NCBI RefSeq assembly: GCF_000264945.2
Contig: NZ_CP013070.1
Span: 2,418,001 to 2,482,000 of the forward strand
Reading direction: 5' to 3'
Source: Sphingobium indicum B90A
GTDB lineage: Bacteria; Pseudomonadota; Alphaproteobacteria; Sphingomonadales; Sphingomonadaceae
Length of the DNA: 64,000 nucleotides
The notes under the pieces were generated by a model. The model made no database searches and had not been told where the DNA came from. It saw only the letters and a program-made list of their open reading frames with translations. The translations under genes and the position numbers were made by a program. Shown one piece after another: positions 15,589 to 60,400 of the stretch (position 1 is its first letter; each line of letters opens with the position of its first letter).

Positions 15589-15676
15589 CGTCATTCCCGC
15601 GCAGGCGGGAATCCATCTCCCGGCGTTCGGCGGGACTTGGGGCGTGAAATGGATCGCCGCCTGCGCGGGGATGACG
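15589..15676. repeat. REP-like palindromic element inside the operon
   Basis: An 88-bp imperfect palindrome: the arm CGTCATTCCCGC at the left pairs with the GCGGGGATGACG arm at the right, with GGAATCCAT/ATGGATCGC inner parts and a GC-rich core. It fills most of the 127-bp gap between manD and the transporter. The same kind of element is inserted in cobN (58808-58898), and a half copy lies near 47413. Confidence 0.85.
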
Positions 15677-56842: not shown

Positions 56843-57444
56843 AATTCGATTCCCGGCTGGGCCTTCACGCCGCTGCGGAAGGGATGTTTGACGAGGGTCA
56901 TTTCAGTGACGAGATCGGCCGCCTCCATCAGCGCGTCGGGCGCGTTGCGGCCGGTGATGATGACATGCTTCATTTCGCCCCTGGCGGTCACGGCTTCCAA
57001 CACCTCTTCGACCGGAAGATAGTCGTAGCGCAATACGATGTTGAGTTCATCGGCAAGGACCATGTCATAGGCCGGATCGGCGATCATGCGTTTCACCTCA
57101 TCCCATGCTTCACGGGCGAGGGCAATGTCCCGCGTCCGGTCCTGCGTGTTCCAGGTGAAGCCTTCGCCCATGGGCTTGAATTCGACATTGCCCGGAAACG
57201 CATCGAACACCCGTTTTTCTCCGGTGGTCATCGCGCCCTTCACGAACTGGACGACGCCCACCTTCCGGCCATGGCCGATGGCGCGGACCACCATGCCGAG
57301 CGCGGCGGTCGTCTTGCCCTTGCCCTTGCCGGTGTGGACGATCAGCAGGCCTTTTTCCTGCGTCTTGGTCGCCATGATCCTGTCATGGGCGGCCTGTTTC
57401 TTCTTCATCTTTTCGGCATGTTGTTCGGGCGTGCGCTCGATCAT
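56839..57444 (-). CDS. cobO: cob(I)yrinic acid a,c-diamide adenosyltransferase
   Basis: 201 residues from ATG 57444, overlapping the cobN stop by four bases. CobA/CobO type with the P-loop HTGKGKGKTTAA (37-48) that binds ATP, VGVVQFVKGAMTTGE, FTWNTQDRTRDIALA, YDMVLADELNIVLRYDYLP and VIITGRNAPDALMEAADLVTEM. It transfers the adenosyl group from ATP to Co(I) after chelation by CobN. Confidence 0.96.
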   Translation of the reverse strand: MIERTPEQHAEKMKKKQAAHDRIMATKTQEKGLLIVHTGKGKGKTTAALGMVVRAIGHGRKVGVVQFVKGAMTTGEKRVFDAFPGNVEFKPMGEGFTWNTQDRTRDIALAREAWDEVKRMIADPAYDMVLADELNIVLRYDYLPVEEVLEAVTARGEMKHVIITGRNAPDALMEAADLVTEMTLVKHPFRSGVKAQPGIEF

Positions 57445-60400
57445 TGCGGGGCATCCTTGAGTTGGGAGAGAAGCATGGCGGCGCTGTTCGACCGGGGTTT
57501 CCAAAGGGCGCGGTCCAGCGCTTCGCGGAGGCGCGCGGCGGTCTCCCGCAGGGCTGCCGGATTGGCCTCCGCCATGAAGGCGCGGACCGCCTCATCCTCT
57601 ATGAAAGCGGCGTGGACGGCGTCGAAATGATGATCCTTCACCGCATGGGTCGTGGCGGCGAAGGCGAAGAGATAGTCGACGGAGGCCGCGATCTCGAACG
57701 CGCCCTTGTAGCCGTGGCGCATCATGCCCGCGATCCATTTGGGGTTGGTGACGCGGGCGCGGACGATGCGGCCGATCTCATCCTCCAGCGTGCGGACGAC
57801 GGGGCGATCCGGGCGGCTGTGGTCGTTATGATAGCTGAGCGGCCTCCTGCCGGAGAGATGCTCGACCGCCGCGGCCAAGCCCCCTTCGAACTGATAATAA
57901 TCATCGCTGTCGAGCAGGTCGTGCTCGCGATTGTCCTGGTTCTGGATCAGGGCGTCGGCCTGGGTCAGGCGCTTCGCGAAGAGGCTGCGTTCGGCATCGC
58001 CCTCCACGCCGCCGCCATAGGCATGGCCGCCCCAGTCGAGATAGACGTTCGCCAGGTCGGCGCGGTCGTGCCAGATCTTCTCGTCGATCATCGCCTGGAG
58101 GCCCGCGCCATAGGCTCCGGGCTTCGAGCCGAAGACGCGGCTGCCGGCGCGACGTTGAGCCGCCTTTTCGGGAATGCCCTCCGCGATCAACGCGGCGGTT
58201 TCAGCGCGATGGCGGGCTGCGGCGGGGTTGTCCTCTTCCGGCTCGTCCAGCGCCATGACGGCGCGGGCGGCGCTGTCGATCAGGTCGATCTGTTCCGGGA
58301 AGGCGTCCCGGAAGAAGCCGGAGACGCGGAAGGTCACGTCGACGCGAGGACGGCCCAGTTCCGCGATCTTCATGACCTCGAAACCGATGACGCGGCCCGA
58401 AGCCCAGTCCCAGCGCGGACGGACGCCCATCAGGGCCAGCGCCTGCGCGATGTCGTCGCCGCCGGTGCGCATATTGGCGGTGCCCCAGGCGGACAGGGCG
58501 ATGGCGCGGGGATAGTCGCCCTCCCGCTGGAGATAGTCCTGCACGATGAGGTCGGCGGAGCGCTGGCCGAGATTCCAGGCGGCGACGGTGGGTACGGCGC
58601 GGGTGTCGACCGAATAGAAATTGCGGCCGGTGGGAAGGACGTCCGGGCGGCCCCTGGTCGGCGCTCCGGATGGGCCGGGAGGGACGAAACGACCGTCGAG
58701 GGCTTTCAGGAGCGCGGTTTTTTCAGCTTGCCCGCAGGCGTCGACGCGGGGGGCGAGGTCTTGCTCGATCACGGTGAGAACCGCTGCGGTTCTTTGCAAT
58801 GCCCAGTCGTCGTCCCCGCGAAGACGGGGATCCATCTCCTGAATGTTCCGCTTGGGGCTGCTTATGGGAGATGGGTTCCCGCTTTTGCGGGAATGACGGT
58901 CCATCAATTCAATGGCGTAGAGTTCGAGCCGTTCCACCGTATCCCCGGTGGTACGCCACGGGGCAGAGGTGACGTGCCAGAGCGCTTCCGGTCGAGGGCC
59001 GGTCCACGGCGTCCCCATGATGCAGTCGAGCGGATCGAAGCCCAACTCAAGATCATGCGCCAAGGCGCGCAACAGTGATTGGCGGCCTTCGTCCAACCCT
59101 CTGGGGCAGCGGGCAAGGGCGATCAGCAGGTCGCGGCGGAGAGCGCCCTCCGGGCTGCGGGTGAAGACATGCAGCCCGTCGCGTATCTGCATTTCCTTAA
59201 GGTCGCACAGATAGTTGTCGATCGCTGCCAAGGCATCGTCTCCGCTTCCCTGCACCCCTGCATCCTTGTCCAACCCTTGCGAGGCGGCGAGGGCGAGAAT
59301 GTCCTTGCGCAGCGTTTCCAAGCGGCGCGGGTCCATGCCGGCGGCGAGATAATATTCGTCGACCAGCGCCTCCAATTCTTTCAGCGGGCCATAGGTTTCC
59401 GCGCGGGTCAGCGGGGGCGTCAGATGATCGACGATGCAGGCGCCGATGCGGCGCTTCGCCTGGGTGCCTTCGCCGGGGTCGTTGACGATGAAGGGATAGA
59501 TTTGCGGGATCGGCCCGGCGCAGATTTCGGGAAAGCAGTTTTCCGACAGCCCGATCGCCTTGCCCGGCAGCCATTCCAGATTGCCGTGCTTGCCCACATG
59601 GACGACGGCATCGGCGCCGAAATCGCCGGCCAGCCAGATATGGAAGGCAAGATAGGCATGGGGCGGCGGCAGCGCCGGGTCGTGATAGCTGCTCCTGGGA
59701 TCGACATGATAGCCCCGCGAAGGCTGGACGGCGAGCGCGATATGGCCGAAGCGATGCACCGGCAGGCGGAATGCCCCGTCGCGGAAGAAGGGATCGGCCT
59801 CGGGCGCGCCCCAGCGGGACCGGACGGCTTGGCGGACCCCTTCGGGCAGGGTGGCGAAGGTCGCGTCATAGGCCTGGAGCGGGAGGGCGACTTCGCCGGG
59901 ACCATCCGGGGCGGCGTTGGTGATGCCGCCCGTCATGCGCTGCATGAGCGCGGCGCCGTCGGCAGGGGCTTCGCCGGTCCGGTAGCCCGCTTCCGACAGG
60001 GCCTTCAGAATGGCGGCGGCACTGGCGGGCGTGTCGAGGCCGACACCGTTGCCGATGCGGCCATTTCTGTTGGGATAGTTGGCCAGGATCAGGGCGACCC
60101 GCCGTTCGTCTACTGGCGTTCTTCGCAGTTTCGACCAGTTTGCAGCCAGTTGGGATACGAAGCTGACACGATCTTGCAGAACCTGGGGCACGACGATGCC
60201 GCATTGCGTGCGCTCGTCGAACCGCGCCGCGGCCTTGAAGGCGACTGCACGGGTGAAGAGGCGGCCGTCCACTTCGGGCAGCGCGACATGCATGGCGAGG
60301 TCGCGAGGGCCAAGCCCGCGGGCGCTGGATTCCCAGGCGCCCTGGTCCACGCTGGCGAAGATCGTCTGGAGGATCGCGCAGTCCGCCTGTTCGAGGATGG

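Follow-up and report, generated by a model that had tools for sequence, protein, structure and literature searches.

The window analysed in this study, a stretch of 64,000 nucleotides from Sphingobium indicum B90A, contains a vitamin B12 gene, cobN, which encodes the cobaltochelatase subunit CobN, and within this gene lies a palindromic element that is translated as part of the protein (Table 1). The element runs CGTC...GACG with a 37-nt spacer between two REP monomers, and a second, intergenic element of the window has a matching layout. The initial annotation had described the first as a REP-like palindrome of 91 bp, kin to the intergenic copy and read in frame without stops. Its sequence and coordinates were confirmed, as was the reading: the CobN frame stays open across the element, and the product is a complete protein matched by TIGR02257 (1543 bits) and PF02514. 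RNA folding gave -56.7 kcal/mol for the plus strand of the element and -41.1 kcal/mol for the coding strand. On the antisense side, an ORF of 544 aa that also crosses the element (57444-59078, plus strand) matched no Pfam or NCBIfam family and was taken as chance.

Table 1. Positions in the window of the REP dimers, cobN and the tract around the insert
Feature	Position	Strand	Remark
REP dimer in cobN, 91 bp, head-to-head, CGTC outward at both ends	58808..58898	no strand	
REP monomer 1 of the cobN dimer, cgtcgtccccgcgaagacggggatcca	58808..58834	+	half-site match
REP monomer 2 of the cobN dimer, cgtcattcccgcaaaagcgggaaccca	58872..58898	-	half-site match
31 codons through the element, RHSRKSGNPSPISSPKRNIQEMDPRLRGDDD, CobN residues 786-816	58806..58898	-	
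Second REP dimer, of like family to the cobN copy, intergenic	15589..15676	no strand	
cobN, cobaltochelatase subunit CobN, 1270 aa	57441..61253	-	
Recombined tract around the cobN insert, CobN residues ~700-870	58644..59156	-	edges approximate, perhaps residues 600-900

REP dimers of the window and the genome

At up to three mismatches, the window held four half-sites, all of them within the two dimers, against a mean of 0.02 and a maximum of 1 in 100 dinucleotide shuffles. In the whole B90A genome (3.95 Mb; G000 among the genus genomes compared, which carry G-numbers), the same threshold gave 31 half-site matches, and a reversed control pattern gave none. Grouping of the half-sites yielded 15 elements, namely 11 close dimers, three single palindromes and one pair bracketing a nuclease gene, with starts separated by 363 bp; a further four single matches are doubtful.

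By its sequence, the cobN element is a CGTC-1 REP dimer, in which two short palindromes stand head to head in a REPIN-like arrangement. An unpaired CGTC tag lies at one end of the palindrome and a CCA tail at the other, and an 8-bp stem beginning with AT encloses a 4-nt loop, which takes the form ATTCCCGC-GAAG-GCGGGAAT in several copies of the genome. The cobN copy differs from this form at a few bases, one of which is a mismatch in the stem. As in the CGTC-1 family, the elements of the genome are mostly head-to-head dimers. The main text of Di Nocera et al. (2013, PMC3733652) includes Neisseria dRS3 and Rickettsia RPE-6 in this family, and CGTC REPs were known from five phyla in that report. 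The likeness to Rickettsia elements drawn in the initial annotation was partly right: the same main text places RPE-4 and RPE-6 in the CGTC superfamily and sets RPE-1 apart as a longer palindromic insertion.

At least two of the 15 elements of B90A were found in frame within conserved genes, cobN and the cell-wall gene murD (C1:171923-172013). For the elements other than the cobN copy, 20 of 48 listed open frames were scanned for domains, and among those 20 only murD has a domain running through the element; the murD dimer occupies the same position in G013 and G015. Furthermore, the peptide encoded in the cobN frame, used as a query across the genus, gave matches in 39 of 94 genomes (E 1e-4); the query covers a single reading frame and is therefore silent on frame bias. 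Thirty matching loci were retrieved and 10 of these were scanned with Pfam: six were conserved genes, three (L349, L343 and L348) had no family, and in L338 an upstream start may have been misread. In-frame dimers with domains running through them or lying on both sides were present in murD (G013, G015), a class V aminotransferase gene (G093, G009), a class I tRNA synthetase gene (G102) and truB (G026). S. alaskensis is also a sphingomonad. According to the main text of PMC3733652, REPs within genes had been reported by 2013 in several species, including a tRNA synthetase gene and truB of S. alaskensis, and the phenomenon seen in cobN is therefore not new; cobN itself is not mentioned in that main text.

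The CobN loop and its origin

The initial estimate of about 30 extra residues was right in that the element is translated in frame, and overstated the gain. Thirty-one codons are affected, and the net gain in B90A over close relatives with an empty site is 81 nt (27 codons) rather than the whole insert, as part of the native linker (SGDPAPGPQ or the like) has been lost. The alignment of CobN consequently lacks the clean gap of about 30 residues that had been anticipated, the native linker being partly replaced. Among 37 aligned CobN genes (35 of the genus and two from other families), six carry the palindrome, all of them sharing its site and frame, which upholds the claim that most relatives lack it. 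In a named genome collection, the palindrome was present in three of the best 80 CobN loci of 455 relatives.

The full 91-nt dimer is found in the cobN of B90A, G027 and G063, and a 28-nt palindrome in that of G012, G066 and G065. By having identical CobN, G027 corresponds to S. chlorophenolicum NBRC 16172, G063 to Sphingobium sp. 15-1 and G066 to S. chungbukense DJ77. All six palindromes begin in phase 0, and the gains over the 93-nt empty stretch (+81, +81, +111, +45, +45 and +21 nt) are without exception multiples of 3. The CobN loop differs in in-frame size between related species. The dimer contains a direct repeat, GCGGG, at 16 and 79, and slippage between these copies, 63 nt apart, would remove exactly 21 codons and leave a palindrome of 28 nt in frame; each of the three collapsed forms has this length. 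The cobN of G070, another genome of the genus, is split, lacks the palindrome and was excluded from the tree. One stop codon was reported within each of the CobN matches of G008 and G069.

Outside the linker, the dN/dS of the B90A cobN was 0.138 against G012 and 0.128 against G027, ratios which show the gene to be under purifying selection. Within the insert, omega among the three dimer-bearing genomes was 0.32-0.93 compared with about 0.13 for the gene, a range that covers 32 codons only. In a model of CobN residues 560-1000, the insert (fragment 227-257) joins the end of a helix (210-231) to the start of the next (257-280), with a loop of low confidence at 235-242 (pLDDT <50). The model is middling (mean pLDDT 65, pTM 0.44) and was used solely for the placement of the insert, which it puts at a short linker between two helices.

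The history of the B90A allele was read from trees of separate parts of the gene. Over codons 1-590, without the linker, B90A is sister to G012 (support 100/100), and the two are sisters again over codons 930-1268 (100/99). Over codons 700-870, without the linker, B90A groups with G027 (94/87) and G063 (95/97). Forcing B90A and G012 together in this tract costs 28 log units (p-AU 5e-4), and forcing B90A with G027, G063 and G066 costs 274 log units in codons 1-590 (p-AU 4e-7) and gives p-AU 0.035 in codons 930-1268; the groups for these AU tests had been suggested beforehand by the identity profile. Identity between B90A and G027 is 80.5% over 1-590, 89.7% over 700-870 and 89.9% over 930-1268, the last being more conserved, and identity between B90A and G012 is 89.9% over 1-590 and 92.3% over 930-1268, with G012 outside the six nearest over 700-870. 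Since the tract 700-870 groups with S. chlorophenolicum and its kin and the rest of the gene with G012, these tree comparisons show that B90A received its CobN loop, insert included, by homologous recombination between alleles. Transfer was likely from the S. chlorophenolicum side into B90A, because G027 also stays beside G063 and G066 in this tract. The initial annotation had taken the palindrome to have inserted into this copy of the gene; the mosaic cobN led us to reject an insertion within the lineage of B90A itself.

An alternative to a single entry followed by exchange and collapse is that palindromes entered one tolerant cobN loop several times independently. The bearers require at least three changes on the CobN tree, and the bases beside the palindrome are different in G065, both in favour of repeated entry. 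We nevertheless hold this reading the less likely of the two, given that G063, G066 and G012 are alike in the extra bases to the right of the palindrome (G066 and G012 also in those to the left), that the recombined tract is common to B90A and G027, and that one frame is used by all six bearers. The in-gene copy illustrates how a palindrome persists in a conserved enzyme, through recombination between species and in sizes that vary by whole codons.

GIY-YIG nuclease genes between matching palindromes

The bracketing REP pair of the B90A genome (C1:3389213-3389604) encloses a gene for a 115-residue protein with a GIY-YIG nuclease domain (PF01541, 54 bits), located directly upstream of pheS. This gene, at C1:3389218-3389562, is of type A. 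Of the 94 genus genomes, 86 had a match to the nuclease family (E 1e-5), as had 73 of 240 genomes drawn from the class and 80 of 299 from the phylum (both E 1e-10). For the genus, 90 loci were compared, comprising the 30 best (one per genome) and 60 picked partly in order and partly for genomes without type-A REPs. Flanking inverted repeats scored at least 15 in 79 of the 90 and at least 20 in 68; among control positions, 2 of 3000 placed at random and none of 174 shifted ones scored at least 15, and a second definition of flanks gave 77 of 90. Among the 30 best loci, 28 of the 29 tested lie in one common genomic context beside pheS, and these loci are therefore not independent and amount to little more than one event.

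In other genera, matched flanks were found in 31 of 56 loci compared with 56 of 672 mismatched pairs, which leaves 25 of the 56 without matched flanks; shifted positions in these distant loci scored at least 15 in 5 of 342 cases. GTC-hairpins pointing inward on both sides were present in 39 of the 90 genus loci and in 24 of the 56 distant loci, against 0 of 162 control positions taken from the latter. Hairpins with outer GTC numbered 30 upstream and 31 downstream in the 56 distant loci (2 and 10 in the 162 controls), and outward-reading hairpins numbered 13 upstream and 15 downstream, with four loci having them on both sides. Moreover, palindrome type tracks the nuclease tree, with 14 changes compared with a mean of 45 after shuffling, on a quick tree of 110 columns and with types set by our own patterns. 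The 60 further genus loci showed additional palindrome types, and seven of 12 loci in one genus clade were typed as having none. Other GIY-YIG clades (L205-L246) have palindromes of their own, for example CGTCATGCTGAACTTGTTTCAGCATCCAT, GTGCTCCTGCGAAAGCAGGAGCCCAGGG and CGTCACCCCGGGCTTGACCCGGGGTCCCGCT. The GIY-YIG gene of L261, from another family of the class, is flanked by inverted repeats of about 120 bp (score 97), far longer than the others. In the nuclease clade L189-L202 together with L213, many loci lack the bracketing single REPs and instead have complete dimers close to the gene, on one side or on both.

Beside pheS, the nuclease was present in 15 of the 30 genus loci and missing in the other 15. 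Both REPs were matched in 13 of the nuclease-bearing loci, and the left REP was altered in G090 and G110. At least four of the 15 nuclease-less sites (G070, G011, G010 and G003) keep a stretch resembling a REP end (at most two mismatches) just before pheS, and some of these sites may therefore be losses rather than untouched sites. Target-site duplications, looked for as a feature of MITEs of DDE transposons, were seen neither at cobN nor at pheS, where native bases are replaced and not split. Among the 30 best loci, 12 have the stop codon of the nuclease gene within the REP, and the nuclease has a median omega of 0.11 (153 pairs with dS between 0.05 and 1.5, drawn from at most 21 loci beside pheS).

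The specificity of the relationship was examined by counting palindromes of two types in 94 genomes, with half-sites at up to one mismatch for type A and up to two for type B. Nuclease A was assigned to 35 genomes (cut-off 1e-42) and nuclease B to 26 (3e-44), the cut-offs being set by eye from the lists of E-values. The median numbers of A and B sites were 25 and 11 in genomes with both nucleases (n=15), 34.5 and 2 with A only (n=20), 11 and 11 with B only (n=11), and 4.5 and 1 with neither (n=48). Regression of the log counts over the 94 genomes, with phylogeny ignored, gave t 6.8 for nuclease A and t 0.3 for nuclease B on type A, and t 7.5 for nuclease B and t 0.4 for nuclease A on type B. 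Tree-independent pairs, drawn from the cobN tree for 35 of the 94 genomes with at least five sites as the trait, gave 7.9 same, 0 opposite and 2.1 ties for type A with nuclease A (median p 0.008), and 8.4, 0 and 0.6 for type B with nuclease B (median p 0.008). The crossed pairs were not significant (4.0/1.0/5.0, p 0.375; 4.6/1.0/3.4, p 0.22).

At least five B sites were found in all 26 nuclease-B genomes, but also in 19 of the 68 without nuclease B, and type-A half-sites were found in 38 of the 59 genomes without a close nuclease A, with many in G009 (62), G034 (58) and G075 (52). Leftover copies, or related nucleases below the cut-off, may explain such sites. The bracketing pair contributes just two sites to any genome count. 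These counts show an association in which palindrome numbers across the 94 genomes track the matching nuclease only, and the palindromes are strongly associated with a nuclease of the matching type lying between them.

Proposed mobilisation and comparison with known systems

How CGTC REPs move without a transposase was left as a question in 2013. According to the main text of PMC3733652, these REPs have no dedicated transposase and CGTC units never flank RAYT or any other IS200 gene, and the authors suggest that CGTC REPtrons may have vanished early; no word beginning with 'GIY' occurs in that main text. Additionally, a literature search outside bioRxiv and most subscription journals showed, among the papers listed, none linking GIY-YIG or UPF0213 proteins to REPs, dRS3, REPIN/RAYT or MITEs, so that in this literature the nuclease class had no earlier connection with REPs. 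In B90A, RAYT is rejected as the mobiliser, because its Y1 transposase domain (PF01797) has no match in the genome; the same profile matched 5 of 14 control genomes.

In view of the type matching and the counts, we propose that UPF0213-like GIY-YIG nucleases probably mobilise the palindromes. The nuclease would recognise its own type of palindrome and drive the copying of dimers around the genome, in the manner supposed for RAYT and GTAG REPs, and a copy landing in a gene would survive only if its length, frame and stop-free reading allow. For the reading as a whole, which joins the in-gene dimer, the recombination and nuclease-driven copying, our estimate of the probability is about 0.62. On balance, we would also extend it across Pseudomonadota, where CGTC palindromes would be non-autonomous, REPIN-like members of UPF0213-like GIY-YIG elements, with nuclease clade and stem changing together. 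If so, the missing CGTC REPtron would be not extinct but overlooked, because its enzyme is not a known transposase. The proposal names a candidate gene for the movement of CGTC REPs and predicts type specificity.

Homing enzymes of the GIY-YIG fold are well known, and the nuclease gene might itself be a homing-type parasite that cuts and enters the spacer of a dimer, the palindromes being spread by other means. The layout of REP, gene and REP looks as though a gene had entered a dimer, and type matching and co-occurrence would result from such a process too. However, the close type-A nuclease sits in the one conserved context beside pheS and not in many dimers, and its low median omega is more in keeping with a resident gene than with a parasite passing through; we regard this explanation as unlikely. 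Still less probable is a structure-specific host enzyme for the repair or control of REP hairpins, co-selected as a neighbour and mobilising nothing. In sequence, the nuclease distantly resembles UPF0213 and UvrC proteins of solved structure, and REP hairpins may stall replication, as stated in the main text of PMC3733652, but this role would leave unexplained why inverted palindromes of the matching type bracket the gene itself, and why a single site has the module in some genomes and lacks it in others. Finally, a native functional CobN loop that merely resembles a REP can practically be dismissed despite the full dimer in three species, since the segment is one of 15 such elements in the genome, is missing from 31 of 37 aligned CobN and 77 of the best 80 loci of the named collection, and has a higher omega than the gene around it.

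With nuclease-driven copying as the favoured reading, the present system can be set beside those already described. The UPF0213/GIY-YIG family of small nucleases, with the solved structure 1zg2 (BH0048), shares the domain by profile (E 2e-5); no repeat-linked role for this family was found in the literature searched, whereas the genes described here are bracketed by REPs. The RPEs of Rickettsia likewise are palindromes translated in frame within conserved proteins, and in-frame palindromes are kept here in cobN, murD and other conserved genes. They differ in that they belong to another genus, whereas the element described here is a CGTC-1 dimer with allelic exchange and in-frame collapse. With published CGTC-1 REPs, the elements share the CGTC tag, the 8-bp stem starting with AT, the 4-nt loop and the CCA tail, as well as head-to-head dimers, intergenic and in-gene copies and occurrence in alphaproteobacteria. 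Those REPs were described without a dedicated transposase, whereas here inverted REPs bracket GIY-YIG nuclease genes, as an association. Lastly, the system shares with REPIN-RAYT and its GTAG REPs the inverted pairs of short palindromes, the many copies and a conserved nuclease gene between REPs, and two inverted REPs with a short spacer were found here to be matched in type to one nuclease. The two differ in their parts, in that a Y1 transposase, RAYT, is paired with GTAG palindromes there and a GIY-YIG nuclease with CGTC palindromes here.
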